From contig CANFGH010000015.1 in assembly GCA_947446285.1 (NCBI GenBank), positions 1-44,688 on the forward strand: a DNA stretch of 44,688 bases. The letters are read 5' to 3'. Below the pieces are notes generated by a model. It did not search any database and was not told where the DNA came from. It saw nothing but the letters and a program-made list of their open reading frames with translations. Of the stretch, positions 4,301-38,304 are shown piece by piece. Source of the stretch: Chloroflexota bacterium. Lineage in GTDB: Bacteria; Chloroflexota; UBA11872; UBA12225. The translations under genes were made by a program, and so were the position numbers. Numbering within the stretch: position 1 is the first letter of the stretch; every line of letters begins with the position of its first letter.

Positions 4301-4948
4301 GCTGACGTCCCCGACGACCTCGATCCCGGCGTCCTCGTCAATGACGGAGCAACCGCCGCCCCAGACGATGCCAGCAGTGACGCGGACCAGGCGGACCAGG
4401 CGGACCGCGTGACCAAGGCGGTGGCGGTTACTTTCCGCGGTACCATCGACCGCGTTGATTGCTCGGATGATGGTCGCCGTGCGTGGGTGATCGACTACAA
4501 GACCGGCTCGCCGGATCGGTTCAAGAAACTTTCATTGGACCCGGTCCTGTCGGGCAAGGCGGTGCAACTCGCCCTCTATCGCTACGCCGCCAGTCAGGAG
4601 CTGGGTTCGGCTCAAGTCGGTGCGTCCTACCGGTTCGTCTCGGGTCGCGGTGCGGGAACCGAACACTCGGTTGTAGACATCGCTCGGGCCAACCAGCGTT
4701 TGCGGGAAGTCGTCACCGTGGTCGCTACCGGGATGGTGCACGGCGCCTTTCCGCAGGTGCCAGGGAAGGACGAGGAACATTGCCGCATTTGCGACTTCCG
4801 CATGGTTTGTCCCGGCAACCTTGAGGCGGTGCGTGGGCGCACCAGACAGACTGCAGGCGGTGCGGTACACGACCACCTTGCGCCGAAAGTCGAGCGTGAA
4901 ATTGACGGTACCGAGGACGAGAGTTCGGACGAAGGGGAAGAGGAGTGA
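1319..4948 (+). CDS. addB: AddB-like subunit of an AddAB-type helicase-nuclease, with Fe-S nuclease domain
   Basis: 1209 residues. The C-terminal third is a RecB-like PD-(D/E)XK nuclease: D1044 in GTIDRVD, then D1059-Y-K1061 in the IDYKTGS motif. Four cysteines match the Fe-S staple of AddB proteins: C849 in TCPYRSF before the nuclease core, and C1155, C1158, C1164 (C-x2-C-x5-C) after it. The N-terminus begins VVVRPGWDT where Bacillus AddB has a Walker A loop; no P-loop is present, so ATP hydrolysis by this subunit is doubtful and AddA probably supplies the motor. Expected role: cutting one strand during RecBCD-like processing of double-strand breaks. The stop overlaps the addA start (GTGA, 4945-4948), implying translational coupling. 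Start uncertain: ATG 1319 has no clear Shine-Dalgarno; ATG 1334 has GGAG 9 bases upstream. Confidence 0.88.
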   Translation: MEPSVMEGHADPMRAAGPRIVVVRPGWDTIAALREAITSAQASDRFAPVMLVTASIDVGRELQLAIANGSSYINVSYARLPELAARILGVEATIRAMGTTAELSAVRAALARTAMKNGRGDAFHETRHHRSLHLALLGLFREFRSREADPDDVLASGAAGATARAASQVYSEFRAITGQATDAVSLAREAVAALKSPSQATLDAIARLGTVILVGPTRLDRADADLLASLSRHAPVHVILPRLDDHRGRADTRANRIASTLAEAIADANSAGALARSEASVGQATTGGADVSAEPLARTLLLRSDLHVIRAPDPAEEVRQAVRRLLAVVGTGVPLHRTAIVYRQRDPYQRLVAEVLDQSGVPHVDLGGMPLSETLPGRRLRALLRLPSSDFSRSSVLAWAETAPVVDVRLPGAEERTPAEPVIIDGASWDWISREAGIVRGATQWGTRLAGYADKCAADADAAREWAEESSPDVEVPIGRAKDARLMATIIGFLAERLTRPDFREKVVGSGQSGSAWADAAEWATDLLSAAATGATSGDGSGAGTEPAYLDRIKGVLVGLAASNPFDLNPSTETVVSVIEATLESTSVSTRRLGEGVVVGTIDRLPAVPFAHITIVGMNEGAFPPPVGADPFFPDPDNDPFGKREAHPVAERATFLSAVALADGGTVTLCTPDSVEGREAYPARWLLEFAEARHGSALAYGRSLRDLSASVPVPDWLDHRVSSRDGARQATGDHRPRTGATPANTVAHAASGARIGVGRRTVALGVEDRRIGAIARWVDAGQSASTHPLVTGDLPVSALWRRAQASATDTASFTPYDGNVGTMRTSSRTLTRALEGSLSATRFETWATCPYRSFLKDVLRVTPTRIPADTWGVDPMVRGTAVHEVLEKWYRELQGRERLHANRLPDSSDLALLDTIASTVIAKLEGAGAAGYPVVWRASRAVLVAELREFAIADGAQRVKTGLVPMHFEQWFGKESRRRPTVAGAAPWSGVTITADVPDDLDPGVLVNDGATAAPDDASSDADQADQADRVTKAVAVTFRGTIDRVDCSDDGRRAWVIDYKTGSPDRFKKLSLDPVLSGKAVQLALYRYAASQELGSAQVGASYRFVSGRGAGTEHSVVDIARANQRLREVVTVVATGMVHGAFPQVPGKDEEHCRICDFRMVCPGNLEAVRGRTRQTAGGAVHDHLAPKVEREIDGTEDESSDEGEEE

Positions 4949-7900
4949 GCGACGGCATGCCAACGCCACTGTTCGATGCTGCGGCGAGGCATCGCCTAAT
5001 CACCGACCTTGATACGACATTCGTTGTCGATGCCGGCGCCGGGACGGGCAAGACGCATACGTTGGTCGCGCGGATCGTATCGCTCGTCGCGAATGGGCGC
5101 TTGGAGATCGGGGCGTTAGCGGCGATCACGTTCACGGAAGCGGCGGCTGCCGAACTGCGCGACCGAATCCGAGGCGGTCTGGATTGGGAGGCTACCAGCC
5201 CGGATGCATCCGACCTGTCGCGTGAACACTGCCGCATCGCGTCTGGCGCGATTGATGAAGCGTCAATCCAGACGATTCACGCCTTCTGTGGCACGTTGCT
5301 TCGGACGTTTCCCCTTGAGGCGTCACTTCCCCCCGGTTTCACCACGTGGGATACGCTGGACGAATCGCGTGCGTTTGACGAGACCTTCCGCGCCTGGCTC
5401 CGGGATGAACCCGAACCCGGGACGGTGCTGGAGGCAGATCTCGCCTACGCCCTGCGTCTCGGCCTGAACCCGGAGGACTTGCGTGCACTGGCGTCGCGCT
5501 ATGCCGAAGTCCCGGTTCCCGGACCAACGGTATCCCAGACCGTCTACGCGAATGGCGCACCCCCGGAGCTGGAAAGAGGAACGGTTCTGCTACCCAACAG
5601 GGACGCTCCGAACGGTGTGAACCCGAACGCAATCGATGCGGTCGTGAGGGAGGTCCTTGGAACGTTCGACGCGATCGATGCCCTGCTTCCCCGCGCTCGC
5701 AGGGGTGACGAGGATCGACTGGTGCGAACGGTCGACGGGTTTGCGTCCGACCGTCGGCGCCTCCAGTACGCGCTTTCGAACCCGGATGCGGACGGCGTTG
5801 GACAGACCTTGGCCCTCACAGCACTGGTGCGACGCAAGGTGTCCGGTGCCAACCGGGGATCGCAGGCCGACTGGGATGCGTTCGGTCTTGACGAGAACCC
5901 TGTGTTCATCATTCGCCAGCAACTTTCAGCAATTGATGAACTGGCGCGAATGACCGTCGCACAAGTCCGGGACAATGCGTTGCGTCGGGTTCTCTTCCAT
6001 GTGGATGTCTTTACCCGGGGTGAGGCAGACCGGCGCCGCGCCGCAGGCGTGACGACGTTTCAGGATCTGTTGTCGCGGGCGCGTGACCTCCTTCGTGACA
6101 ACCCGGAGGTGCGCCGTCGTGCCCACGCCCGATGGCAGAGGCTGTTCGTCGACGAGTTCCAAGACACCGATCCGCTTCAGGCCGAGATTGCGTGGTTTCT
6201 GTGCGCCGATCCCGAACACGCCGAGGTGACCGATTGGCGGGCGTTGCGGATTGTGCCGGGACGACTCTTCATCGTGGGTGACCCCAAGCAGTCGATCTAC
6301 CGCTTCCGTCGCGCCGACATTGCGGTGTACAACGAGGTGTACGAGCAACTCGCGCCCAAGAGCGGTGGCGTGCGCATCGAGCTCGTCCAGAACTTCCGGA
6401 GCCTGGCGCCGGTCCTTGAGTGGGTCAACGATGAGTTCGGGGTAGCCATGACGGGTGCGCCGGGTATCCAGGCCACCTATATCCCGTTGGTCGCGCATGA
6501 CAAATCGGCGCAGGGGCAGGTCGAGGCGCATTTCCCCGTTGGATCATCGGATGCGGTGGAAGTGGTTCGCGGGTCGATTGCCCCCGGCGTTACCTGGCGT
6601 CTCGGGACCATCGTCGAGAAACCGGTGTCACGGGTCCGGCGCATCGAGGCTGCCGACCTAGGCCGGGCCATCAGGCAGATCATCGATGGTGGCTGGCTCA
6701 TCCGCGACCGCGAGACGAAGCAGTTGCGCCCGGCGAGGTTCCGCGACGTCTGCATTCTGATGGCGACCCGGACCGGGCTCCAACATATCGAGGCCGGGTT
6801 GACGGCAGCTGATGTCCCGTACCGTGGCGTCGGAGGTGCACTCGTCGCGGCTACAACCGAGATACGTGACCTGATCGCGTGTCTGCGGGCGATCCATGAC
6901 CCGTCAGATCAGGTTGCGACGGTCGCGGCGCTTCGATCTTCCGCCTACGCGTGTACCGATGTCGACTTGTTGTCGTGGGTGGACGCGAGGGGGCGTTTTG
7001 ACTACCGGACCGGACCTCTGGGAAGCGATACGGCCGTTGCTTCGCCGGTTGCCGACGCGCTTGCATCGCTGCACGCGCTTCATCTCGCGAGGACTGGCCG
7101 GAGTGCGGCCATGACCGTCGAGGCGCTCGCACATGAGCGCATGCTGGCGGTCGGGACCTTCCTCCACCGGCAACCGCGGGAGGCTTGGCGCCGCGTGCGT
7201 CTGGTCGTATCCCAGGCGCGGACGCTCGCGAATGCCGGTCTGCCAACCCTGCGCGACCTGGTTGAGTGGTTCGACGAGCTTCTTGAAAAGCGTGCTGACA
7301 CCACGGCACAACCTCCCGAAGGGGACGAGGACGCCGTCCGGCTAATGACTGTGCACGGGGCAAAGGGGCTCGAGTTCCCCATCGTGTTCCTGACTGGCCT
7401 CGATGGTCGGCAGCGGTCAGCGGGGTCGCGTGTCGATGTTGCAGTCCCTGTGGACTTTGCCCTACCCCAGAAGGACGAGGGGGAACGTATCGCCCGATCC
7501 CGTAGCGACGGGCAGGCGGACATCGAGGCGCGGTGCGGGGATTTCCAGACCCTTGGATACGCCGAGTACGGTGAGCGTGAGAAACGACTTCTCGAAGCCG
7601 AACGGATCCGGCTGGAATACGTGGCTGCGACACGCGCCTGCGACCATCTGATGCTGTTGCTGCACCGTCGCGCCCCGTCAAAGTCGGAGGGAAAGTCAGC
7701 GCCGACGGCTGCCTCTCGCATCGCCGCCCGTCTTGACCGCTCCGACGCACCTTCCCCCCCGCTCGCCGTGCCCTTTGTTTGGCAAGACATCGCGCAGGCT
7801 GAGACCCCCGTGTCGTCAACTCGGGCCCTCGACGCCCTTGAACCGTGGGAGCTGGTCGGGACCTCAGACGAATGGATCACAGCCGAGCATGAGTGGTTGC

Positions 7901-8685
7901 GCCATCGGGTCGAGTGCATCAGTGACGCGTCACGTCGTGCGGTCGTGACGCCCAGCCGCCTGCGGCGTGACCACGCAAGGCCTGCGAACGGTTCCGGCCG
8001 TGGCGATACCGATCAGTCCGTTCCGACAGCCGAACCCGACGAAAGCGACCTGGTGCGGGAAACTCCTGGCGGTGATCCAACCGAAGACGCCAGTGAGAGC
8101 GCGGACTTGCGCACCCGCGCGCAAGCCAGAGGAACCATTGTCCACCAAGTCCTGGAGCGGATCGATCTCGGGACGCTTGAGAACATCGACCAGCTGGTGG
8201 CTGAATGCATCGATGACAAGAAGCGTCAACCACACGTTCGTGACCTGGTCAAGGGTGAGGCCTCGCGGATCATCACGCTTGTCCGAAATGCGGCCCGCAG
8301 CCCATTCGTCACGAAGGCGGTCACCTCAGGTCGTCTCTGGCGCGAACTTCCGCTCGGCGCATCCGTCGATGGCGTGACCATCTCCGGCGTCATCGACCTC
8401 TTACATGAGGCGCCTGATGGAACGCTCGCCATCGCGGACTTCAAGACGGACGTTGTTGGCAATGAGACGGAAGCCCGGGCGACGGCCGGTGCGTACGAGG
8501 CTCCGGGAGGCGCATACGCGCTCGCATTGGAGGCGGTGACCGGGCGCCCGGTATCGTCGGTGTCGTTCATCTTCGCGCACCTGCACGACGGCCATACCGT
8601 GACGTACCAGGGAGATGAGCTGCGCCGGATCATCCAGGTGGCCCGCGACCGGTCTCGCGAATTCCATCAACCACCGGTAATGTGA
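4945..8685 (+). CDS. addA: AddA-like UvrD/Rep-family helicase with C-terminal nuclease
   Basis: 1246 residues with a full superfamily 1A helicase motif set. Walker A is GAGTGKT at residues 31-37; motif Ia is ITFTEAAAAELRDR; motif II is DEFQDTD from D403; motif III is GDPKQSIYRFR; motif IV is LVQNFRS; motif V is MTVHGAKGLEFP; motif VI is RLEYVAATRA. A RecB-type nuclease domain follows, with ARGTIVHQVLERID and the catalytic IADFKTD (D1165, K1167). This is the domain order of AddA, which unwinds and degrades double-strand-break ends to load RecA. The GTG start overlaps the addB stop by 4 bp, with GGGGAAGAGGA upstream; an in-frame ATG at 4957 is an alternative. Together with addB it forms a two-gene operon. 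Confidence 0.92.
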   Translation: MSDGMPTPLFDAAARHRLITDLDTTFVVDAGAGTGKTHTLVARIVSLVANGRLEIGALAAITFTEAAAAELRDRIRGGLDWEATSPDASDLSREHCRIASGAIDEASIQTIHAFCGTLLRTFPLEASLPPGFTTWDTLDESRAFDETFRAWLRDEPEPGTVLEADLAYALRLGLNPEDLRALASRYAEVPVPGPTVSQTVYANGAPPELERGTVLLPNRDAPNGVNPNAIDAVVREVLGTFDAIDALLPRARRGDEDRLVRTVDGFASDRRRLQYALSNPDADGVGQTLALTALVRRKVSGANRGSQADWDAFGLDENPVFIIRQQLSAIDELARMTVAQVRDNALRRVLFHVDVFTRGEADRRRAAGVTTFQDLLSRARDLLRDNPEVRRRAHARWQRLFVDEFQDTDPLQAEIAWFLCADPEHAEVTDWRALRIVPGRLFIVGDPKQSIYRFRRADIAVYNEVYEQLAPKSGGVRIELVQNFRSLAPVLEWVNDEFGVAMTGAPGIQATYIPLVAHDKSAQGQVEAHFPVGSSDAVEVVRGSIAPGVTWRLGTIVEKPVSRVRRIEAADLGRAIRQIIDGGWLIRDRETKQLRPARFRDVCILMATRTGLQHIEAGLTAADVPYRGVGGALVAATTEIRDLIACLRAIHDPSDQVATVAALRSSAYACTDVDLLSWVDARGRFDYRTGPLGSDTAVASPVADALASLHALHLARTGRSAAMTVEALAHERMLAVGTFLHRQPREAWRRVRLVVSQARTLANAGLPTLRDLVEWFDELLEKRADTTAQPPEGDEDAVRLMTVHGAKGLEFPIVFLTGLDGRQRSAGSRVDVAVPVDFALPQKDEGERIARSRSDGQADIEARCGDFQTLGYAEYGEREKRLLEAERIRLEYVAATRACDHLMLLLHRRAPSKSEGKSAPTAASRIAARLDRSDAPSPPLAVPFVWQDIAQAETPVSSTRALDALEPWELVGTSDEWITAEHEWLRHRVECISDASRRAVVTPSRLRRDHARPANGSGRGDTDQSVPTAEPDESDLVRETPGGDPTEDASESADLRTRAQARGTIVHQVLERIDLGTLENIDQLVAECIDDKKRQPHVRDLVKGEASRIITLVRNAARSPFVTKAVTSGRLWRELPLGASVDGVTISGVIDLLHEAPDGTLAIADFKTDVVGNETEARATAGAYEAPGGAYALALEAVTGRPVSSVSFIFAHLHDGHTVTYQGDELRRIIQVARDRSREFHQPPVM

Positions 8686-24389: not shown

Positions 24390-24908
24390 GTGACATCAGT
24401 TATGTCAATCCCAAGCGGGACGGTGACATTCCTGTTCACGGACATCGAGGGGAGCGCGCGGGCGTGCGAGGAGAACCAGTCCGGGCGTGGGCAGTCGGGG
24501 CTGGCGCGGCGGCTGGCGCGGCACAACGCGATCCTTGACGAGGCAACGGCGCAGAACTCCGGCTCTGTCTTCAAGACGATCGGGGACGCGTACTGCCTTG
24601 CGTTCGGAACCGCGGATGATGCATTGGCGACCGCGATCGATGCGCAGTTCGCGCTGGCGGAGGAGGACTGGGGCTGTGGGGTGGTGCGGCCGGTGCGGGT
24701 GCGGATGGGGCTGCATACCGGGCCGGCACAGGCTCAAGAGGGCGACTACTACGGGCCGGCGCTGAACCGAACGGCACGGATCCTGGCGACGGGGCATGGG
24801 GGGCAGGTCCTGTGTTCTGGACTTGCACCCATTTATCGGACAGTCATGGGTTTGGGAGCGGACGGGGCAGACGGTTGGGACGCTTCGAAGGCGACGGGGC
24901 TGAGGTAG
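24390..24908 (+). pseudogene. Adenylate/guanylate-cyclase regulator truncated by an IS end
   Basis: The GTG at 24390 has AAGGAGCG 6 bases upstream. The class III cyclase domain is nearly complete: SGTVTFLFTDIEGSARACEE with metal Asp in FTDIEGS, KTIGDAYCLAFGTADDA, VRMGLHTGPAQAQEGDYYGPALNRTARI, then GQVLCS. At 24818 the gene is cut by an IS3-family end, and the last 30 residues (GLAPIYRTVMGLGADG...) come from the element read backwards, stopping at 24908. Relatives carry an ATPase and TPR tail, which is absent here. The cyclase core might still fold. It is a paralogue of the decayed gene at 17083, which was hit by the same element. Confidence 0.8.
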
Positions 24909-24962
24909 CCAAGGCTTGCGTAGCGACGGTGCGGGTTGTACCACTCTTTGGGTGCAAGTCCA
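24818..24962 (-). mobile_element. IS3-family remnant with 14-bp inverted ends
   Basis: 145 bp bounded by TGGACTTGCACCCA (24818-24831) and its perfect complement TGGGTGCAAGTCCA (24949-24962). On the minus strand 24948-24833 encodes the typical C-terminus of IS3-family transposases, EWYNPHRRYASLGYLSPVAFE...MTVR, with stop at 24835-24833. The catalytic domain is missing. The first 51 bp repeat, inverted, at 17328-17378. The right-hand inverted copy abuts IS481-type coding sequence, so either two inverted IS3 ends collapsed together or the right copy is a coincidence within the neighbour's gene. No target duplication is visible. Confidence 0.72.
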
Positions 24963-25182
24963 CCGGACCCGGCCGGAATGGCCCCAGACGAACAGGAAGG
25001 TCGAGCGCTGGTTCCAGACCGTCCTGCGCGAATGCCTGCACCTCCACCCGCTGGCGAGCGAGGACGAGCGTCAACGGGCAGTGGACGCCTTCGTGCGGTA
25101 CCACAACCACGACCGACCGCACGTCGGAATCAAGGGCATCACCCCCCTCTCCCGCCTCGCTTCCCTGTCAACAACCTTGTGA
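24963..25182 (+). pseudogene. IS481-like transposase C-terminal fragment
   Basis: Reads RTRPEWPQTNRKVERWF, then DAFVRYHNHDRPHVGIKGITPLSRLASL and a stop at 25180-25182. This is the end of an rve/DDE integrase core as in IS481-family elements, with the catalytic Glu of the KVER segment kept and both catalytic Asp residues lost with the upstream part. The frame runs without a stop from 24916 through the IS3 remnant, so the boundary is a fusion. The sequence TGTCAACAACCTTGTGAGAG just at the stop may be part of the element's right end. Confidence 0.75.
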
Positions 25183-25218
25183 GAGAAACAAGTAGACCGC
25201 CTGCTGGGCAGTTTGACG

Positions 25219-28406: not shown

Positions 28407-29543
28407 TCACTGGGGAGGCGACCACCTTGCGGAACTTGGACGCGACGGAACAACGCTAATTGGCAGTCGAAGACCATCGCGCGCCGCCTGGATGAGGTCA
28501 GGAAGCCAGACATCTTGCACGCGCGCAATACCGCTGGCATTCGTCGCGCCTGACGGGTCGCTTCCTGGCAGCGTGTCACCCCGCAGGGCAAGTCGGACTT
28601 CGAGGTCGGCAACCGGGTGCGCAGCATTGTCGCGCACACCAATCATCACCGCGGCGTACCCAGCTCGCCGATCACCGTCCGGCCTGATCGTTGGCGCCAG
28701 GTGCAGCACACTCCCGTCTGGCATGGACACCGTACAAGGTGAACAGGCAAGGACGTGGGCCAGCACGCTCGTGGACAGGCTGGCATTTTGACCGCTGGGA
28801 CCGGGTCCGGCTCCTTGTGACCAGTTGCCGTTTGGATTGATCGTTGATCCGGCCCATCCCAGCATTGCCAGCGGGAGCTCCGGTCGTCCCCGAGCGATTG
28901 AGAGGACCGCGAGCAGGTTTCCAAGGTCCGGGTCGGCTGTGCTATCCGCGTTGACCGGCCTGGGCGCAGTAGGAACTGCCGGGACTGACCTGCCGGCACC
29001 GAGGTTGTGTTGGGTTTGGACGCGCTGGGCCGGAGAACCAGCGTCACTTGTCGAACTAGCCATTGCGGCGCGCGCGACCGACCAAAGGTGATCGGTGGTT
29101 GTCCGCATCGACCAGGCCAGGCGCTCAACCAGGGCCGGTGTCATTTCGTCGGTGTGCAACGCACCGTTTTCCAGAAGGCTGAGGGCAACCGGGTCGATGC
29201 CAGCGTCGGAAGCGACACTCATCAACGTCCGATCGGAACCGCGTCGTATCCCGGCGACATATTCGCCGAGCCGACGCACCCCATTGGATGATGCCCGCGT
29301 CGTCCGGTGAGCAAGCAGTATCGACAGGCGACGCACATGCAGGCGTGGGTCGTTGCTGGCACCGTCCCAGTCATAGGCAAGGGGCCAGAAACTTGTCGCT
29401 TCGGCGAGTGCGACCAAGTCCGTCCCGGCGTCCTGACCCCACAACGGATCTGCGAGCAGGTCATCGTTCCAACCCTGCAATGCCCCGCCGGGCGGATCAT
29501 CCTGGACCCACCGATAACCGTGACGATCACCACCGCGCATCAC
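28407..29543 (-). CDS. XRE-type helix-turn-helix protein with beta-rich C-terminal domain, last gene of the CHAT cluster
   Basis: 378 residues. The GTG start at 29543 overlaps the upstream sigma-like gene's stop in a GTGA quartet; an ATG follows as the second codon. Residues 90-155 resemble an XRE helix-turn-helix: LGEYVAGIRRGSDRTLMSVA, then AGIDPVALSLLENG where the family has the recognition helix and Glu-x-Gly turn, then PALVERLAWSMRTTTDHLW. A Ser/Ala/Pro-rich linker (160-210) leads to a second part whose end (VMIGVRDNAAHPVADLEVRLAL...NASGIARVQDVWLP, about 285-350) has the rhythm of an Ig- or transthyretin-like repeat. No membrane segment. Tight overlap with the sigma-like gene implies a shared role in transcription control; a direct partner or antagonist of the sigma-like protein is an inference. 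Confidence 0.7.
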   Translation of the reverse strand: MMRGGDRHGYRWVQDDPPGGALQGWNDDLLADPLWGQDAGTDLVALAEATSFWPLAYDWDGASNDPRLHVRRLSILLAHRTTRASSNGVRRLGEYVAGIRRGSDRTLMSVASDAGIDPVALSLLENGALHTDEMTPALVERLAWSMRTTTDHLWSVARAAMASSTSDAGSPAQRVQTQHNLGAGRSVPAVPTAPRPVNADSTADPDLGNLLAVLSIARGRPELPLAMLGWAGSTINPNGNWSQGAGPGPSGQNASLSTSVLAHVLACSPCTVSMPDGSVLHLAPTIRPDGDRRAGYAAVMIGVRDNAAHPVADLEVRLALRGDTLPGSDPSGATNASGIARVQDVWLPDLIQAARDGLRLPISVVPSRPSSARWSPPQ

Positions 29544-30631
29544 TTCGGAACTCCGCGGGAGGGGCGCAATTCCCCCGTGTGCGCAAAGAATGGCTCACCC
29601 CAAATCGCTTGATGCCGGTCGTAGAGTTGGCGAAGCCCGGTTGCAACCGCGCTGACAAGGGCCGGGCGATTGGGCCACGCCCGTCCGCTTGGGTCAACAG
29701 TTGCGCGGAGGGTCTGAAACATGGCGTCGACGACGACCGCTCGTGGACGGGTTCCGACCATCGCAAGGTACGCCAGAAGCGCCGAACGAAGGTGATACCC
29801 GGTCTCCTGGGTAGTCATTTGCCGCAAGGTCCCGAGTAGCACCTCGCGATGTTGGCCGACGATGGCGTCTTCAAGGCGAATGCGCGCGTCAGTCAACCGG
29901 CGCCGGGCGGCGTCACGCGTGATAGTGCGCGGTCCCTTTCGTGACAGGTGTGCGGCGAGGGCTTCATCGACACGGTTTCCATGGACGAGTGGTGTGTACT
30001 GCAGGAGGGCGAAGTCGAGCGTCTCAACATCCGATGGACGCAACCCACGCAATGTCGCGCCAACGACCTGGCGTGCATGCTGCTCAGATTCCGCCTGCTC
30101 AACCTCGTCGGAAGGGGTCCCCCGATCCGTGTCCGGGAACTCCGGTGCGGTCGTCGCCGACGTTTCCCCGTCGCCGGCGGCGTCAGCCGACACGATCAGG
30201 AAGTACGGGGGGTAGCGACGCCAGCCTTCCGGTCCGACGCTCGGCCCGTTCGGGCGGCGGAACCGGGGGTGTCTCCGCCTTGTCCGAGCCCGTCGAATGT
30301 CGGTCAACTTGTTGGCGGCGATCGCGCGGACGCCCGAGATGAAGCCCGTGTCGTGCCAGAGATCGGCGCTTGCGACCCCACGCGCCAGTGCCGATCTGTG
30401 CACTGAAGATCCGGGAACCTTTTCGCGAAGGTGGATCACCATGGTGTGGACGTCATCAAGCGCGTCGGCTGAAAAGCCGGCAACCGAGAGTGCAACCCTC
30501 TCCGAGGCGAACCAGTCCCACTCCATGGATGGAAGGGTGCTGCCTGCGGACGCCGTTGCTTGCGCTGACTGGTCACCCGCCTGGGCTGAGTGCGCCCCTG
30601 AGACGGCATAAAGGCTTCGAATGGTTGCCAC
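29540..30631 (-). CDS. ECF-sigma-70-like protein with C-terminal extension
   Basis: 363 residues from the GTG at 30631, which has AGGAAG 5 bases upstream. The frame is open to 31018, but the extra 129 codons are Arg/Gly/Ser-rich and probably not translated. Residues 57-120 (LDDVHTMVIHLREKVP ... FISGVRAIAANKLTDIRRARTRRR) resemble sigma region 2, with the typical NxLxDxxRxxRRR end. Residues 130-180 are a Pro/Asp/Thr spacer. Residues 185-256 (QVVGATLRGLRPSDVETL ... RTITRDAARRRLTDARIRLEDAI) resemble region 4 with its recognition helix. About 107 further residues have no known counterpart. The match is by eye and diverged. It lies downstream of the CHAT protease and overlaps the XRE-type gene by 4 bp. 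An RNA polymerase specificity factor or a derived DNA-binding adaptor is the likely role. Confidence 0.6.
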   Translation of the reverse strand: MATIRSLYAVSGAHSAQAGDQSAQATASAGSTLPSMEWDWFASERVALSVAGFSADALDDVHTMVIHLREKVPGSSVHRSALARGVASADLWHDTGFISGVRAIAANKLTDIRRARTRRRHPRFRRPNGPSVGPEGWRRYPPYFLIVSADAAGDGETSATTAPEFPDTDRGTPSDEVEQAESEQHARQVVGATLRGLRPSDVETLDFALLQYTPLVHGNRVDEALAAHLSRKGPRTITRDAARRRLTDARIRLEDAIVGQHREVLLGTLRQMTTQETGYHLRSALLAYLAMVGTRPRAVVVDAMFQTLRATVDPSGRAWPNRPALVSAVATGLRQLYDRHQAIWGEPFFAHTGELRPSRGVPK

Positions 30632-31142
30632 TGGCTCTTCCTGATGCCGACACGAATGAACTCGATCAAGCCCCGACAGCGTAGCACGGGGATTTGCGGT
30701 GCTTGGCACGCCCGAGGTGATTCGCCAGCCTGGGATGGAGCCGGGAACTCCGGTGGTCGATGAGGCCCCTTGGACCGGCCCGGTATTCACGGAACCGACG
30801 CCCGCTCCATGAGGTACTGCATGGTTCCAATCGGTGCCCATCCCGAGGTGACCAGGTCCACCGCGTGATGAGCGCGGCGCGGACGCAGTGACGTCGACAC
30901 CGCGAGCCGCGCATCGTGGGGTCCGCTCATCACGGTTGGACGCACACGCCTCCCCACCTCGGCGAAGACGCTCGTACTGCGTTGTCAACAATCGGACGTG
31001 ATCGGTTCTGACGCTCATCCAATTACATGAACGTCACATGGATGCATGGTGTGAGGCGCAGTGCATTCACCAGTCTTTCCGGTCGGCGGACATTCTGCGC
31101 CCAAAGCCACAGTCTCGATTTCTGGGGCTAGCTTGTTGACGT
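30632..31142. other. Intergenic region between CHAT and sigma-like genes
   Basis: 510 bp. The minus-strand frame is open through 31018 and would give the sigma-like protein an Arg/Gly/Ser-rich leader, which I consider unlikely. A TTGACA on the minus strand near 30981 could be a -35 element of an internal promoter, but no good -10 follows it. No hairpin that would clearly end the CHAT transcript was seen. Confidence 0.35.
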
Positions 31143-34100
31143 TCAGATACGGCCTGCACTGCCAACGAATGGCGCACCGTGGATCACGTAGGGAGCCCAA
31201 TGCGCGAGTTCCGCAAACGGCCTGGTCGTGTCACCTACATCCAATGAGACAAAGCGGGATGCAAGCGCCTGGATCGCTTCGTGGGCCGGATCGGTGAAGG
31301 GAAGGACGTCCGCAAGTGCCGTTGCCAAGTGAACAAGCACCTGGGCGACCGCCGCGGGGGTCGCCGTCCGCAACCATCGGGTAGCGTGGCGAAGTGCATC
31401 CGCCTTGTTCGTCTCACCACCGATCACGGCATTTCCCATGTGCCATCCCACTAGGACGGCTGCCACTTCGTCAACCGGCCAGAGGGTGCCGCCAACGCTT
31501 CGTGTCCCTCGGATGAGCAGGGCCGTAAGCAGCCCCGAAAGGTGGTCGCCCGGCGCCGGATCATCCGCGTGCGTGCTGCATGCCAGCAATTGCAGGTGAT
31601 CCACCCCGCTTAGGTCCAACCGGGCGAGCAGTTCGGCGGAAGTCACCCATGTGCCTTCCGCGTCGTCGCCCCGATATGTTTCATGCTGGACATCGGCAGT
31701 CAGTACATCTTGGAGTGGGGTCATTGGCCGGTCTGGCATCGATCTCCCCGAATGGACCAGCAAGCCTGAGTCGATCAGTCCACCAGCGCGCCCGTGGGTC
31801 GCGACAAAACCGAACCGCTTGCCGGCAAGGCATGCCTGGCCAAGGATTGCGTCGCGCGAGGCGCGTTCCCGCAAGCGCAGGGTCACCTTCCCGGAGGGAC
31901 CGCCGTCGGCCATCGTCGCCGTCGTTTCGCCGGGGTTCAACCTCTCACCCGCGGCTCGCGCGAGGGCTGCTGCCAGCGCCACGGTTGCGTGGGGTGCCTC
32001 GTCGCCTGCGCGCAAGCCAAGACCAGGTGCCAATGAGGCGATCCCGTCAGGCGCGACTGGTCGATACGCGACGAGTGGAAGGACGTCGGCCATGTTGGCG
32101 TAGGTGACGGCATACCGGTCAGTCAGCCTGGTATCGCGGTCCCACCGGGCGATCCCCCGTGGCGCCCATGGCAAGGCGTGCAGTGGCAGGCGATGCATCG
32201 CTCCGGTGGGCACAAGCACCAGATGAGGGGACGTGGCTGCACGGTCTGAGGCCAGCATTTCCTGCCGTTCGGTCGCTGCTTCCAGGAGCGGGGCGAGGAC
32301 CGGAATAACGCGATCAGCTATGCCCCGCAATGCCCGTTCGAGGTCGCGGTTGAGTTGTGCGAGACCGGTGGCATCCGTCCCGCCAATGTCGACAGCGCTG
32401 GTGAGGGCCTGGTCGGTGATCGACGCCCATTGGGCATCCGAGATGTCGACGGAGGCGATCGAAAGGTTGGGTTCGTCGTCACGGATGGCGGCAAAAGGCA
32501 TTGAGTTGGATGCCGGAATTCCGCTCGTCCCGGACGCGTACACCCTGGGAACCCCTGCGTTGCCACCGGTTTCGAGTTCCGCGGATATGCGGTTCCGCGT
32601 GGAGAGCACCATGACGACGGTGCGGGTCTCAAGGGGTGCGAACATGACGAGCGACCCGTTTGCGGGCAACGCAACCGCGACTTCGGAAATCGGTCGGGGG
32701 GCGGCGTACCCACGCGCCGTTGCGTAGTTTGGGTCCGATCGTTCGATTTGGTGAAGCAACTCCGCAAATTCGGCCCTGAGTGACCGGTGCCGGGCCACAA
32801 GCCGGGCAACGTCTGCTTCGGCCAAGTTTCCGTGCCCCGCGGTACCCGTTCCCCGCGGCCCGGTGAAACGAGTTCCTTCCGGAGAGGCCCGCTTGCGCTC
32901 TTGCAGCCATCCGAGGAAGGCAACTGGCGTGGTCGTTGGAACGTCAGGTTCCCCATCCCGGGGGCTGATCTGCGTCCCGAGCAACGGCGAGGCGGCACCG
33001 CCACTGAACAGGATCGTTTCGAGGCGGTCCAGTTCGGGTTTGAGGCGTTCGAGGGCATCGACGAGCGGCTGCGTCTCGGCTGTCGGTTGCAGGTTCCCCG
33101 TCTGGAGTCGCGAGGCGAGCCTCCGTCCCTTGCTGCGCTCGATTGCCGTGAATGTCGCGCGGAGGAGATCATTGGCTGGCAATCCCGCATTGATCGTCGC
33201 TTGGGCGAGGTTCGCCGTCTCCTCGATGAGCCATCCGTACAGGTGACCGAATGTTCCAACCGCGAAGAGTGCATCAGCTTCGGCATCGAGGGGCAGACGG
33301 GCAAGGTAGGCGTCTAGCGCATCCAACGTGACCGACAGCACCGTGAGGCGTTCGTTGCCAAGCCGATCCGCATCCCCTTGGGCCGTGGGGCTGACTGCTT
33401 GCTCCGAACCCAAGGTGAGACTGGGCGCATCGAGGTTGTAGTCCCGACTCCTGAGGGCGGATGCGAGCGCGTTTCCGATCCCGACGACCGCAAATCCGGC
33501 AAAGCCCGCCGTTCCAGTCACGAGTGCCCAGGCGTCGCGGTGGAGGGCGATCGACCGGATCTGGTCTGCCGGCGTTCCCCGGACCTCCAGCAAGCTTGCG
33601 AGGCCGGCCAGGCGGGACGCGCGGTTGGGGTGTCCATCGGCGGTTCCGGCGACCGCTTCCTCGGCCACGCGAAGCGCCGCTTGCAGATCGGCAGGAACCG
33701 ATCCTTGGTCATGCCTCCACCGCAGGAAACCCGACAACGCGGCAAGGCGCGTGGCCCGCTCAGGATTCCCGGTCTCCATGAGCGCGAGAGACGTCTCGGT
33801 CAGGGAGATCGCACGGTCAAGGTCTGACCGGTCAGCCAAGGCGCCATCCCGTCGCCATCGTTGACTGAGTGCAATGGCGAGATTGCCGACGCGCGCCGAC
33901 CGTTCCAGTCCGGCCTCCGGGGTGGCGGCGAACGCTTCTTGCGCGTAGGCGATGGTCTCGTCGAGGTCTTCAGGTCGGCCGCGCCCGGAGAAGCGCGCCC
34001 CGAGGCGCTGCGCGAGGTTTGCCACCCTAGCTGGTCGTTCTGGACTATCTGGCAACGTACCGGAAACCGATGCCCTGGCGAGGTCGATTGCTTGGTCGAG

Positions 34101-35522
34101 GTCTCTCGGGTTGCCCTGGCGGTCGTAGCGGATAGCCAGATGGGTCCCGTGGTTGTGCTGCCTCATCGCGAGGAAGGGGCTTCCGTCCGGGGACTCGGAT
34201 ACCGCTTGGGCCGATAGGTCTATCGACCGGTCAAGGTCCGCCGGATCGCCGCGATGTTCGTACCGGGTGCTGATGACGAGACTGAGATTGTTCAGACGCG
34301 ATGGTCGGTCGGCGTTCCCCAAGGGAGAAAGGGCCAGAGCCTCTTCGGCAAGCAAGATCGATCGGTCCAGGTCGGCCGGATCTCCCCGGTTCGCATAGCG
34401 GGTGCTCAAGCTGATCCCGAGGTTGTTCAGGAGCCAGAGCGGTTGCGTGGCACCCGGCGGGGCCAGGGTCATCGCCTCCTCTTCGAACTCGATCGACACA
34501 TCGAGGTCCGCTGGGTCCGCCCCTTGGTTGTGGCGGGTCCGGAGACGGATCGCGAGGTTGCCAAGCAGACGGCGACGCTCGTGAGGCGACACCCCTCCAA
34601 TGGATAGACCTGTCCGCGCGAGAACGATCGACCGGTCAAGATCGGCAGCGTGTCCAGAAAGATTGAACCGTGTCGCCAGTCGCAGTCCAAGGTTTCCCAA
34701 GCGCACCGGGTAGTGCGGGTCCGCTGGGTCAGTGCCCGAAACGGATGCTTCAGCATGCGTGATCGCCAGATCGAGGTCGGCGTGGTCGCCCCGGTTGTCG
34801 TGCCTGAGACGGAGCAGGAGTGCCAAACGGTTGTCTGCCGTCGCCGTCGCTTGGCGATCGCCGGACGCCAGATTGTGCGCGAGGGTAGCGACTTCGATTG
34901 CACGGTCGAGATCCACGTGGTCACTTCGCTCTTCAAAGCGCTCGCCCAGCAGGTCAGCCAGTGCCTCGGTAGCCCGGAAGGATGCGAACCAATCGTGAGA
35001 CCCGCGTGCCGGTTTGCTTTCACCGCGTTCTGGTGGAGTGAGGAACTCCTGTGCGGCGGTGCCCATTGCGACGGCGCGGTCGAGTGCTGCCTTGTCACTC
35101 GAATCAATCGCGTGCCTTGCACGGAGATCGAGCGCGAGGTCCACCTGGCGGTCGGCGAATTCACTGGTTAGGGGAACCGTCGCATCGAGTGTGGCCTGCC
35201 GGTACACAATTTTGAGGGTAATGTCCCCAAGGTCACTGGATGCTGAGAATCGGGTCTGGCAGGCGATTGCTTCGGCCTGGAGCGCGGTCAAGAGTGCCTC
35301 ACGGCATAGCTCAACTCGGGTCAGATCTGTCGTACCTGTGTCCCCCGCACGAAGGAGTTCTCCGATTGCCGAAGCCAGATCGGTCACGAGGCGTTGGAGT
35401 GCTTCCGGAAATATGTCTCCGTCCGGCAACCGCAGTGAGGACGGATTGGGCCACGCTCGAGCCCACCGGATGAACTCCACCGTGCCCGCGGTTTCGCCTG
35501 TGTTTCCCATGGTCACGCACAT
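31143..35522 (-). CDS. TPR-CHAT protease (caspase-like)
   Basis: 1459 residues. Residues about 160-640 contain some ten helical repeats of 45 residues with core RG(D/N)xADLDRSIxLAxEAL; the DLDRSI element recurs at 205, 250, 294, 339, 384, 429, 474, 519, 567 and 612. These are TPR-like units longer than the standard 34. A helical middle follows, then a CHAT domain from about 1115: PHLVLVPTGAMHRLPLHALPW, the catalytic His in FVATHGRAG (H1243), the catalytic Cys in LQLLACSTH (C1315), and a typical end HWAPYVIHG. CHAT proteins are caspase/separase-clan cysteine proteases that cleave a dedicated partner when the repeats sense a signal. No signal peptide, so cytoplasmic. Alternative start ATG 35510; neither start has a strong ribosome site. 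It lies 48 bp after the YbjN-like gene and upstream of the sigma-like and XRE-type genes. Confidence 0.9.
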   Translation of the reverse strand: MCVTMGNTGETAGTVEFIRWARAWPNPSSLRLPDGDIFPEALQRLVTDLASAIGELLRAGDTGTTDLTRVELCREALLTALQAEAIACQTRFSASSDLGDITLKIVYRQATLDATVPLTSEFADRQVDLALDLRARHAIDSSDKAALDRAVAMGTAAQEFLTPPERGESKPARGSHDWFASFRATEALADLLGERFEERSDHVDLDRAIEVATLAHNLASGDRQATATADNRLALLLRLRHDNRGDHADLDLAITHAEASVSGTDPADPHYPVRLGNLGLRLATRFNLSGHAADLDRSIVLARTGLSIGGVSPHERRRLLGNLAIRLRTRHNQGADPADLDVSIEFEEEAMTLAPPGATQPLWLLNNLGISLSTRYANRGDPADLDRSILLAEEALALSPLGNADRPSRLNNLSLVISTRYEHRGDPADLDRSIDLSAQAVSESPDGSPFLAMRQHNHGTHLAIRYDRQGNPRDLDQAIDLARASVSGTLPDSPERPARVANLAQRLGARFSGRGRPEDLDETIAYAQEAFAATPEAGLERSARVGNLAIALSQRWRRDGALADRSDLDRAISLTETSLALMETGNPERATRLAALSGFLRWRHDQGSVPADLQAALRVAEEAVAGTADGHPNRASRLAGLASLLEVRGTPADQIRSIALHRDAWALVTGTAGFAGFAVVGIGNALASALRSRDYNLDAPSLTLGSEQAVSPTAQGDADRLGNERLTVLSVTLDALDAYLARLPLDAEADALFAVGTFGHLYGWLIEETANLAQATINAGLPANDLLRATFTAIERSKGRRLASRLQTGNLQPTAETQPLVDALERLKPELDRLETILFSGGAASPLLGTQISPRDGEPDVPTTTPVAFLGWLQERKRASPEGTRFTGPRGTGTAGHGNLAEADVARLVARHRSLRAEFAELLHQIERSDPNYATARGYAAPRPISEVAVALPANGSLVMFAPLETRTVVMVLSTRNRISAELETGGNAGVPRVYASGTSGIPASNSMPFAAIRDDEPNLSIASVDISDAQWASITDQALTSAVDIGGTDATGLAQLNRDLERALRGIADRVIPVLAPLLEAATERQEMLASDRAATSPHLVLVPTGAMHRLPLHALPWAPRGIARWDRDTRLTDRYAVTYANMADVLPLVAYRPVAPDGIASLAPGLGLRAGDEAPHATVALAAALARAAGERLNPGETTATMADGGPSGKVTLRLRERASRDAILGQACLAGKRFGFVATHGRAGGLIDSGLLVHSGRSMPDRPMTPLQDVLTADVQHETYRGDDAEGTWVTSAELLARLDLSGVDHLQLLACSTHADDPAPGDHLSGLLTALLIRGTRSVGGTLWPVDEVAAVLVGWHMGNAVIGGETNKADALRHATRWLRTATPAAVAQVLVHLATALADVLPFTDPAHEAIQALASRFVSLDVGDTTRPFAELAHWAPYVIHGAPFVGSAGRI

Positions 35523-35570
35523 GATTGCATGACCAGGACCAGTGGCTACCCGGTCATCGAGTTGTGCACG

Positions 35571-36167
35571 TCACGCGTCATCGAGGATGGCAGGGAAGGA
35601 CGCATTCGGTGCCCGACGGCGCAATGCGGTTTCCGCCGAGAACCCTTCCACGACGACCCCCTCGATCACCGGCAGGAACCCATTGACGACCGACTGGGCA
35701 ATTTCAATCAGGCAATCGACGATTGCCAGATCTCCCGACGGTGCCACCGGGACGGTCCAGTCAAATCGGATCACGTTCCCGAGAGACGAGAGTGAAAGGG
35801 CACCAGTCCGCAGCCTCGTGGCGTTGATCATGTTCAACAGCACCTTGACCTCGCGCTGGCGGGCGGTTGGCCACGGCGTCGGACCGGAGAACCCTATTGG
35901 TGGATCAGCTGGCCCGCGAGGCGCTTCCCCGTCACGACGCACCTGACTCAAACTCGCGGGTCGATCGTCCCCTGCGGCACGAGGTGTCGTTGCAGATATG
36001 GTCAGAAGCGGTTGCCCGGCAATCGCGCTCGAATCGCTGATCCGGATCGAAATGCACAACGGCACGTTGGTCGCGAGGTCATTGAACGCCACCCCACCCC
36101 CGACTTCGTAAATATCGGTGCCCCTCGCGCGCAGTCTGGTGACGATCGATTCCCGCAACTGCTGCAT
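35571..36167 (-). CDS. YbjN / type III secretion chaperone-fold-like protein
   Basis: 198 residues from ATG 36167 (MQQLRESIVTRL), with AGGAG 8 bases upstream. An N-terminal helix and strand (RLRARGTDIYEVGGGVAFNDL...PLCISIRIS) are followed by a Pro/Arg-rich loop, then LLNMINATRLRTGALSLSSLGNVIRFDWTVPVAP and an amphipathic helix LAIVDCLIEIAQSVVNGFLPVIEGVV. The last two segments match the layout of YbjN-like proteins, which share the type III secretion chaperone fold and bind other proteins; this is a pattern match by eye. A Pro/Ala-rich insert of about 40 residues lies at 80-120. The gene precedes the TPR-CHAT protease by 48 bp and is likely co-transcribed, so it may be a substrate, sensor or chaperone of the protease. 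Confidence 0.65.
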   Translation of the reverse strand: MQQLRESIVTRLRARGTDIYEVGGGVAFNDLATNVPLCISIRISDSSAIAGQPLLTISATTPRAAGDDRPASLSQVRRDGEAPRGPADPPIGFSGPTPWPTARQREVKVLLNMINATRLRTGALSLSSLGNVIRFDWTVPVAPSGDLAIVDCLIEIAQSVVNGFLPVIEGVVVEGFSAETALRRRAPNASFPAILDDA

Positions 36168-36223
36168 GTATCCCACTCCTAGGCCCGTAGTGCGACGATG
36201 GTTTGGCAACGTGAGCCCGAAAC

Positions 36224-36248
36224 GCGGGTCGTGATGCGAGGAACCCGC
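36224..36248. promoter_or_regulatory. Short inverted repeat upstream of the YbjN-CHAT genes
   Basis: GCGGGT (36224-36229) and ACCCGC (36243-36248) are separated by 13 bases in the 136-bp gap between the ADP-ribosylglycohydrolase fusion and the YbjN-like gene. It could be an operator half-site pair or a chance match. Confidence 0.2.
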
Positions 36249-36303
36249 ACTGCGTAGGACGCCGCATGCGTGCCCGGTGTGAGGGTTGGGCGTGGCGGCG
36301 TGG

Positions 36304-38304
36304 CTAGACCGACAGCAACCGTTCGGCGACTGCGAACGCGTCGGCAGGCCAGAACGCCGCTGGCCGTGGCTTCCTGATGCGTTGGGTGGGTCCAGGGGAT
36401 TCCGGCAACATCGCAGGTCTGCAACTCAGGACCATTCGACGCCATTGGGCCGGCACGGCGTCACGCCCGTGGGCCGCACCGAGCAGGGCACCGGCAATCG
36501 CCGCGGTGGTGTCGGTATCGCCTCCGGCCCGCACGGTTCCGATGACCCCTTCCCCCAAGGTAGGGGAGTAGAGCAGGCGATGGAAGGCATTGCGGATTGC
36601 AATAAGTACCCACCCCATGTTCGTCTGGAAGTCCTCGGGCGGTCCGACGTCAGCTGCGTCGATGGCATCGGCAACTGCCGTACAGTGCTCGACGTATCGG
36701 GCGTGGTTCCTGGCGACATCCCACAAGTCACGCGGGCTGGTGTGTACCCGGACTGCGTGGGCAATGGCCACCGCGAACGTTGCCGACGCCGCGATGCACA
36801 CGCGGTTCGGGTGGGTCAGCGATGCATCGGCCCGGGCTGCTTCGGCAACGTCCCCGACCGCCCGGTATGCGCCCCAGATCCCCAGGGGGGCAACGCGCAT
36901 CAATGCACCGTTCGCTTGCGTCGTCTTCAATGCCGTACGGGCAAGCGTATCCACCACCACACCGGCTTCCATGTCGCGTCGCGTGACCGGACCCAATGCC
37001 ACCAAGGTCGTGTTTCCGATGTCGAACGGTGTTGCCCGATGCGGATAGGCGTCCTGCCGAAGGCCGTCTTCAAAAAGCCATCCATGGCACCACCGCGCGT
37101 ACGCGGCCCCAACGGCCTCCGGATCCCAGGCGCCACGGTCGATGAGTGTCCGTGCGAGCATGAGGGCCATCTCGGAGTCGTCTGTCGGTTGACCGGCAAT
37201 CGTGTCGAAGTGCCCCCCATCAATCAAGTGGAACGGTCCACCATCGGGATACCTCTGGGAAATCTCGTGGGCAGATTTGAACTCGACCAATGAGCCTAGG
37301 GCGTCGCCGGCGAATTGACCAAGGAGGCACCCTTGGGCACGAGAGAGGGCGCCCCGATCGGCAACGCGGTGCGCCGCGGATGTCTTCAAGGGCAGGAACT
37401 GCGTGAGCGGGGCATCGTCCGCAGTCCGAGGCGCTGAAATCGCCTGCCAAGCGCGCTTGGCCAGCGTGTGTACAACCTCTGCGGACCCCGCAAAGGCACC
37501 GTGCACTGGCCGGGAACTGGTGCCGTCGGCAGAGTACGAGATTTCGGTCCCGTCCTGATCGACAAGCGTTCCGCCGGCACCGCTCAGGAGTGCGTGTCCG
37601 GCGCAGTACTCCCAGGATGCGTGGGCACTGCCGGCCTCAACTGGCTCTCCAGATCGCGGATTGGTCGGATAGGAAACCGAAGCATCAGCGTCACCAACTG
37701 CGGCGAGGGCAAGTCGATACGCCAGATTGTCTACTGCGAGAAAGCGACCGGGTGCGACGCACTTGAGCGTTGCGTGCGCGTTGACTTCACTGGAAGTTGG
37801 CACAGCCACGACTGTCGATGCATCGATCGTGTCGGGCCACGCAGCTCGTGGTGCCGGTGCACCATTCCGGGTCACCTCGCCGCAACCTTCCGCCCACGCG
37901 AAACAATCGGCTTCACCGTGTGGTGTGAAGACTGCGTGGACGACACCCAGCACCGGCGCCCCATTGCGTAACAGGGCGATGGAGATGGAATGTTCGGTCA
38001 CCCGGTCGGACCCGCCCACCCCGCCGTGAACGGGTTCGATGATCCAAACGTGTTGCTCATGCGCTTCAAGTGGAGAGACCAATTCGGCCCCGGACGCCTC
38101 GGTCGACCCGAGAATGGCCCACGCCGGAAAGGCACCGGAAAGGCATTTCCGGATCGCAGCATCAGACCCGGTGTCAAGTGCCGGGATCCCACCGTCGCCG
38201 GTTGTGCCTCGAGCGGCGAACCCAGGTGACAGCGTTTTGGAGATGATCTGCGCTGCCGCCTTCGATGCAGCGTGCATGGCAACGTCTAGCGCTCGCCGGT
38301 ACAT
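36304..38304 (-). CDS. Fusion of a degenerate inositol-monophosphatase-like domain and an ADP-ribosylglycohydrolase
   Basis: 666 residues. Residues 1-290 follow the inositol monophosphatase fold: AWAILGSTEASG (E69), WIIEPVHGGVGG where the family has DPLDGT (here E90 and H93), and HASWEYCAGHALLSGAGG where the family has WD (here E232). The metal-binding Asp residues are thus changed, so phosphatase activity is doubtful. Residues 320-660 form an ADP-ribosylglycohydrolase (DraG/ARH-like): GCLLGQFAGDALGSLVEF (325-342), QPTDDSEMALMLARTL (372 on) and GGDTDTTAAIAGALLGAAHG (594-613), with both acidic pairs expected to bind two metal ions intact. Role: removal of ADP-ribose from protein, nucleic acid or a small molecule. 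Cytoplasmic. First of five same-strand genes leading into the CHAT protease, but 136 bp separate it from the next, so operon membership is not proven. Confidence 0.85.
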   Translation of the reverse strand: MYRRALDVAMHAASKAAAQIISKTLSPGFAARGTTGDGGIPALDTGSDAAIRKCLSGAFPAWAILGSTEASGAELVSPLEAHEQHVWIIEPVHGGVGGSDRVTEHSISIALLRNGAPVLGVVHAVFTPHGEADCFAWAEGCGEVTRNGAPAPRAAWPDTIDASTVVAVPTSSEVNAHATLKCVAPGRFLAVDNLAYRLALAAVGDADASVSYPTNPRSGEPVEAGSAHASWEYCAGHALLSGAGGTLVDQDGTEISYSADGTSSRPVHGAFAGSAEVVHTLAKRAWQAISAPRTADDAPLTQFLPLKTSAAHRVADRGALSRAQGCLLGQFAGDALGSLVEFKSAHEISQRYPDGGPFHLIDGGHFDTIAGQPTDDSEMALMLARTLIDRGAWDPEAVGAAYARWCHGWLFEDGLRQDAYPHRATPFDIGNTTLVALGPVTRRDMEAGVVVDTLARTALKTTQANGALMRVAPLGIWGAYRAVGDVAEAARADASLTHPNRVCIAASATFAVAIAHAVRVHTSPRDLWDVARNHARYVEHCTAVADAIDAADVGPPEDFQTNMGWVLIAIRNAFHRLLYSPTLGEGVIGTVRAGGDTDTTAAIAGALLGAAHGRDAVPAQWRRMVLSCRPAMLPESPGPTQRIRKPRPAAFWPADAFAVAERLLSV

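Follow-up and report, generated by a model that had tools for sequence, protein, structure and literature searches.

In type III-E CRISPR (clustered regularly interspaced short palindromic repeats) systems, the protease Csx29, which joins tetratricopeptide repeats (TPR) to a CHAT peptidase domain, cuts Csx30, the inhibitor of an RpoE-type sigma factor called CASP-sigma (PMC10028731, PMC9729208). In the CalpL/CalpT/CalpS system of type III CRISPR loci, it is the anti-sigma factor CalpT that is cut, by CalpL (PMC12751052). Kaur et al. (2021) reported that the neighbourhoods of EACC2 caspases usually hold an extracytoplasmic function (ECF) sigma factor and a DUF1822 protein (PMC8195603), and ECF54 sigma factors, for which control by proteolysis has been proposed, have CHAT, subtilase or carboxypeptidase neighbours (PMC8999054). 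Here we describe a gene row at positions 28407-38304 of a 44,688-nucleotide stretch of Chloroflexota DNA (contig CANFGH010000015.1 of assembly GCA_947446285.1; hereafter the window), the core of which encodes a TPR-CHAT protease, a sigma-like protein and a protein with an XRE-type helix-turn-helix (HTH) and an immunoglobulin-like (Ig) domain, the XRE-Ig protein. We tentatively read this core as a transcription switch gated by a protease.

Like Craspase, the Csx29 system, the window encodes a TPR-CHAT protease together with a sigma-like protein (RpoE-type in Craspase) and a possible inhibitor. Unlike Craspase, its row contains no Cas7-11 by Pfam, a search that was made among the row genes and not in the remainder of the genome; the curated Csx29 model scores the window's CHAT protein at 11.1 bits against a cut-off of 300; and no CRISPR-type repeat (direct repeats of at least 20 base pairs (bp) within 150 bp) is present within 22000-44688, in line with an earlier note on this DNA, made from the sequence alone, which saw no CRISPR array. 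CalpL resembles our proposal in that proteolysis releases a sigma factor from its anti-sigma factor, but it is a Lon-SAVED protease gated by cyclic tetra-adenylate (cA4), and Pfam found none of these domains in the row. In ECF54, an ECF-type sigma factor lies near a CHAT protein, as the sigma-like protein does here, and the consulted part of that account makes no mention of an XRE-Ig partner. In the EACC2/DUF1822 systems, as in the window, a CHAT/caspase protein, often with TPR, stands beside a diverged sigma factor (in the window, a sigma-like protein) and beside a third protein; this third protein is DUF1822 there whereas it is XRE-Ig here, and the order is sigma-DUF1822-CHAT in cyanobacteria compared to CHAT-sigma-XRE in the window, in a different phylum. 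None of the row proteins matches PF08852 (DUF1822), and XRE-Ig was ruled out as a DUF1822 homologue, as its alignment to a DUF1822 protein covers no more than 8 residues.

We found similar sigma/DUF1822/CHAT cassettes on plasmids of Picosynechococcus and Nostoc. In the Nostoc cassettes, as in the window, the gene in the sigma position lacks a Pfam match and overlaps that of the third protein, DUF1822 in Nostoc, by 4 bp; in Nostoc, a TPR-CHAT or a TPR protein follows. These Nostoc proteins, annotated as hypothetical (L208 5908-6600 and L209 5989-6681), share 25.8-26.3% identity with annotated Picosynechococcus sigma factors. By the Csx29-model and DUF1822 tests made, the window module appears to fall outside both systems. 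The earlier note had expected a different system, but the principle had already been published (PMC8195603; for ECF54, PMC8999054). As neighbourhoods of CHAT/caspase proteins and ECF sigma factors are already known, we read the module as a new and lineage-restricted form of such cassettes.

A conserved core of four genes

The window corresponds to contig C15 of a 3.4 Mb assembly that is 89% complete, and its nearest named relatives in a GTDB-wide scan are Chloroflexota assemblies, e.g. UBA2235 and LaPlata-5m-a_bin-061, freshwater bacteria according to our reading of the sample names. The row is real and consists of five genes that share a strand, as the earlier note had described; this is the minus strand, on which all features below lie as well. 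Its core comprises four of them: gene 1, the TPR-CHAT gene (gene 2), the sigma-like gene (gene 3) and the XRE-Ig gene (gene 4). The note had proposed a module of five; the four-gene core is conserved, but the ADP-ribosylglycohydrolase gene adjoins it only in genus g1, which rules it out as a core member.

The sigma-like protein was found in five of the nine genomes of the family and in no other of the 400 phylum genomes searched, and a GTDB-wide scan for it, which reaches only relatives with a shared conserved peptide, returned four loci, all in those same family genomes. The order gene 1-CHAT-sigma-XRE is retained in G000, G001, G003, G004 and G008, representing two genera, with the core of G001 split over two contigs that carry 28 identical bases at their ends. 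Identity between the genera amounts to about 50-60% for CHAT, sigma and XRE, and gene 4 homologues always directly follow the sigma-like gene. The module-type CHAT, sigma and XRE genes are present together (5/9 family genomes) or missing together, as in G002 and G005-G007; G002 belongs to the same genus and its assembly is only 81% complete, and G005 carries one unrelated CHAT gene. Neighbourhood conservation had been chosen beforehand as the test that could refute the module, and the three genes stay together in relatives. In addition, G008 holds a diverged second copy, with sigma and XRE on C168 (about 30% identity) and CHAT at the matching end of C435 (L015, L152). The CHAT protein of this copy has kept its catalytic residues and lacks clear 45-residue repeats, and its contig ends without a visible gene 1.

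A general habit of Chloroflexota to place CHAT beside sigma genes was ruled out, as 4 of 18 CHAT neighbourhoods sampled away from the module loci had ECF genes nearby, with no sign of a shared operon. The hydratase and methyltransferase genes downstream of the module in the window also lie beyond it in G004, and the hydratase gene does so in G008. This shared flank in two genera points to vertical inheritance rather than a defence island, and suggests that the locus was inherited vertically while other flanking genes changed. The defence role considered in the earlier note is without specific support: PADLOC models gave zero matches with the five row proteins at E<=1, and Pfam, PADLOC and PHROG scans found no known toxin, sensor NTPase or defence protein in the row. 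Zero phage-type matches of the row proteins in PHROG likewise rule out a phage origin of the module. Based on these comparisons, we read the cassette as a real, conserved and lineage-restricted variant of protease-gated sigma cassettes.

The CHAT protease and the overlapping sigma-like/XRE-Ig pair

Gene 2 (31143-35522) encodes a protein of 1459 residues with a CHAT peptidase domain at residues 1080-1449 (31176-32285), matched by PF12770 with E = 1.3e-22 and 81 bits compared to a gathering score of 24. The catalytic pair noticed before, H1243 (31794-31796) and C1315 (31578-31580), lies within this domain, is invariant in all three full-length CHAT homologues and is also retained in the diverged paralogue. 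The homologues in G008 and G004 are 55-60% identical to the window protein. The repeats of 45 residues seen in the earlier note were recovered as well: nine TPR-like repeats of 45-48 residues, identified by their register and cross-genus conservation, span residues about 201-611 (33690-34922), with the core DLDxxI at residues 204, 249, 294, 339, 384, 429, 474, 519 and 567, and the repeat region is strongly conserved across genera.

Gene 3 (29540-30631) encodes 363 amino acids from a GTG start and has homologues in five genomes. Comparing G000 with G003, substitutions at the three codon positions number 47/42/105 inside the gene, whereas in the same frame upstream of the GTG at 30631 they number 46/47/46, as in non-coding DNA. 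Because the coding pattern begins at this GTG and is flat upstream of it, we place the start there, as the earlier note had done, and the same test ruled out a start at the ATG at 31018 (492 amino acids). The AlphaFold model contains a sigma2-like helical region (30281-30514), whose helices run up to ...IAANKLTDIRRARTRRR, and a sigma4-like HTH region (29852-30040, helices 164-222), so that the order of motifs agrees with sigma2-linker-sigma4; a conserved C-terminal extension of about 100 residues follows and is kept across genera. The predicted local distance difference test (pLDDT) is mostly 70-90 across the first 83 residues. Searching the Protein Data Bank (PDB) with this model in Foldseek returned sigma factors for all of the first 18 matches, led by sigma-E, sigma-32, the ECF sigma-like chain of a mycobacterial complex, AlgU and sigma-H, the best of them, sigma-E, with a probability of 0.97 but E=0.076, and phage sigma subunits were among the top viral fold matches. 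HHalign, with four usable sequences, placed residues 135-222 on the sigma4 region of ECF factors of the same genomes in the correct order, with a score no better than column shuffles (see below).

Gene 4 (28407-29543, 378 amino acids) has its GTG/ATG start overlapped by the TGA of gene 3. This overlap, already described in the earlier note, is found in both genera, as ATGA at the same place in the g2 genomes, and is absent from the second copy of G008; such overlaps are common between ECF sigma factor genes and those of their regulators, and the two genes are probably translationally coupled. The XRE-type HTH that had been proposed is supported by HTH_31 at residues 91-143 (29115-29273), detected in three of six family members with a best E of 0.0016, the window protein itself scoring below the gathering score. 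The core of an Ig-like Big_1 domain lies C-terminally at residues 299-342 (28518-28649), with matches in five of six members (best E = 0.0019); a sequence search of its Ig part in the PDB gave invasin (E=0.33). Both Pfam matches are weak in the window protein, yet recurrent in relatives, and in the reverse direction the family profile retrieves bona fide HTH_31/HTH_3 and Big_1 proteins of the 400 phylum genomes at those positions. Among relatives, the linker between both domains is the most variable part of the protein.

Because the start of gene 3 lies at 30631, about 510 bp separate it from the CHAT gene (31143-30631). This gap contains GTGCTACGCT (30678-30687), and the same 10-mer precedes gene 3 in G000, G001, G004 and G008. 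Although rare, with 3 copies in the genome, GTGCTACGCT occurs in seven genomes mostly before unrelated genes and once 17 bp behind TTGACA, and for these reasons reads as a general, housekeeping-type extended -10 promoter of the sigma-like/XRE pair. It had first been taken for a private conserved motif, and autoregulation by the sigma-like protein was ruled out by the copies before unrelated genes. The element is apparently a promoter element of the whole family, recurring upstream of a small shared set of genes in several genomes (loci L172-L206). Having their own promoter, the sigma-like and XRE genes can be produced independently of CHAT.

A proposed switch and its rivals

We propose that the core forms a cytoplasmic, CRISPR-independent switch of transcription in which the CHAT protease would cut the XRE-Ig protein and thereby free a diverged ECF-type sigma factor, and we assign this reading a probability of about 0.4. 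It builds on the gene set and its order, the gene overlap, the catalytic pair, the HTH and Ig domains and the promoter-like element before genes 3 and 4. The model of gene 3 weakly suggests a sigma fold; the inhibition by gene 4, the cleavage, the signal and the target genes are what we infer beyond this. In the proposed sequence of events, the XRE-Ig protein, overlapping and probably coupled in translation, would bind the product of gene 3, a strongly diverged ECF-type sigma factor, and keep it inactive in an anti-sigma-like manner. The TPR-like repeats of CHAT would respond to a signal or to a partner bound to them, possibly the gene 1 product, and the activated His/Cys domain would then cut XRE-Ig, which would free the sigma factor. 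The cut would most likely fall in the long linker between HTH and Ig, a guess prompted by the variability of this linker, where a cut would be tolerated. We favour a sigma factor that is made in advance, inhibited and released by proteolysis because the overlapping sigma-XRE pair has its own promoter and the protease gene is always adjacent, and the separate housekeeping-type promoter is in keeping with a pair that is produced in advance but stays inactive.

Several observations weigh against this switch. None of four members of the gene 3 family matched a Pfam sigma family at E<=10, searches of NCBIfam and of PDB sequences gave no useful match either, and the Pfam models do recognize the ordinary ECF sigma factors of this genome. 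The structural model of gene 3 is modest (pLDDT 55.5, predicted template modelling score 0.34), its Foldseek E-values are all above 0.05, and the HHalign score against ECF factors, 18.5, does not exceed the best of 60 column shuffles, 18.7. The sigma-like label of the earlier note is thereby carried by the signal at fold level but not by sequence or profile-profile comparison, and gene 3 is probably, not certainly, a sigma factor. A known anti-sigma domain is lacking from gene 4, and the structural model of its product is unusable (pLDDT 32). CHAT and the sigma-XRE pair need not share one transcript, given the gap with its own promoter, and the identity of any CHAT substrate rests on inference.

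An alternative that we consider unlikely is that the sigma-like protein is itself the target of CHAT, which would degrade it or trim off its C-terminal extension of about 100 residues, with XRE-Ig as a separate co-regulator guiding promoter choice. The conservation of this extension across genera would suit such a role, and for ECF54, with CHAT proteins in its neighbourhoods, protease regulation without an anti-sigma factor has been proposed (PMC8999054). The overlap of the sigma and XRE genes in both genera, however, suggests that two binding partners are made in equal amounts, as sigma and anti-sigma factors are, and in the studied TPR-CHAT case it is the inhibitor that is cut and not the sigma factor (PMC10028731). 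It also seems improbable that the targets of CHAT are gene 1 or other proteins of the cell, as for a suicide or stress effector, with the sigma-XRE pair only timing the production of the module. A role as conflict effectors is predicted for many bacterial CHAT/caspase proteins (PMC8195603), gene 1 stands directly before CHAT in every intact locus and the sigma-XRE pair has its own promoter, but the row lacks a known toxin, sensor NTPase or defence protein and keeps the same chromosomal flank in two genera, unlike a defence island.

Still less probable is that gene 3 encodes another helical DNA-binding regulator, in which case the module would still be one of protease-controlled regulation. The failure of sequence searches and the HHalign score at the level of shuffles speak for it, whereas the unbroken run of sigma factors at the top of the PDB fold matches, the phage sigma subunits and the motif order speak against it, and CHAT-linked cyanobacterial sigma factors are also nearly or wholly invisible to Pfam. 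That the genes are neighbours by descent only, without joint function, is very improbable: vertical inheritance within one family and the relatedness of all genomes with the module would fit it, but the genes are present or absent jointly, their order persisted while the proteins diverged by about 50% and the flanks changed, and a diverged duplicate of the gene set and the gene overlap exist. Returning to the release of sigma from XRE-Ig by CHAT, a doubtful extension of it would be that one cut of an HTH-Ig anti-sigma factor gives two outputs, a freed sigma factor and a DNA-binding HTH, and that CHAT-sigma switches have evolved repeatedly, each time with an unrelated inhibitor (Csx30, DUF1822, XRE-Ig).

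Gene 1, flanking genes and significance of the cassette

Gene 1 (35571-36167), with its ATG after GGAG, encodes an alpha/beta protein of 198 residues without a Pfam family. A homologue precedes CHAT in G001, G003, G004 and G008, with about 30% identity between genera. The name YbjN-like given to it earlier could not be upheld, as Pfam gave no match, including PF10722 (YbjN), and HHalign against 10 YbjN proteins from these genomes and other Chloroflexota aligned 2 columns. The likeness is limited to an apparent order of helices and strands, and YbjN identity was ruled out on this profile evidence.

Outside the core, the flanking gene at 36304-38304 encodes an ADP-ribosylglycohydrolase (PF03747, E=5e-59), as the earlier note had recognized without remarking on its fusion to an N-terminal inositol-phosphatase-like domain (PF00459, E=7e-16). 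The motifs TDDSEM and GGDTDT of the ADP-ribosylglycohydrolase are intact. The usual metal motif of the phosphatases is WxIDPxDGT; this position reads WIIEPVHGG in the window and WIIDPGPTT in G003, and because of this departure the degenerate phosphatase half is probably a pseudo-enzyme. In G008 a helicase-like gene occupies the corresponding place, which, together with the restriction to g1, argues against ADP-ribose removal as a further layer of the module; in G004 the contig ends there. Elsewhere in the window, two large overlapping genes (1319-8685) encode a PD-(D/E)XK nuclease protein and a UvrD helicase-nuclease and are AddB/AddA-like. Possible remnants at 24390-25200, lying between functional genes, comprise a short integrase-like frame (IS481-type by eye) and a truncated frame resembling adenylate cyclase, and perhaps mark an old insertion where g1 gained binding-protein and enolase-family genes beside the module.

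The only biochemically proven TPR-CHAT/sigma switch that we found in the literature lies within a CRISPR locus. CHAT-linked sigma factors, here and in Nostoc, have diverged enough for standard profiles to miss them, and cassettes of this kind are therefore probably under-counted. If the proposed switch is true, control of sigma factors by CHAT proteases would be a broader form of signalling in bacteria, with protease and sigma factor retained and the inhibitor exchanged.

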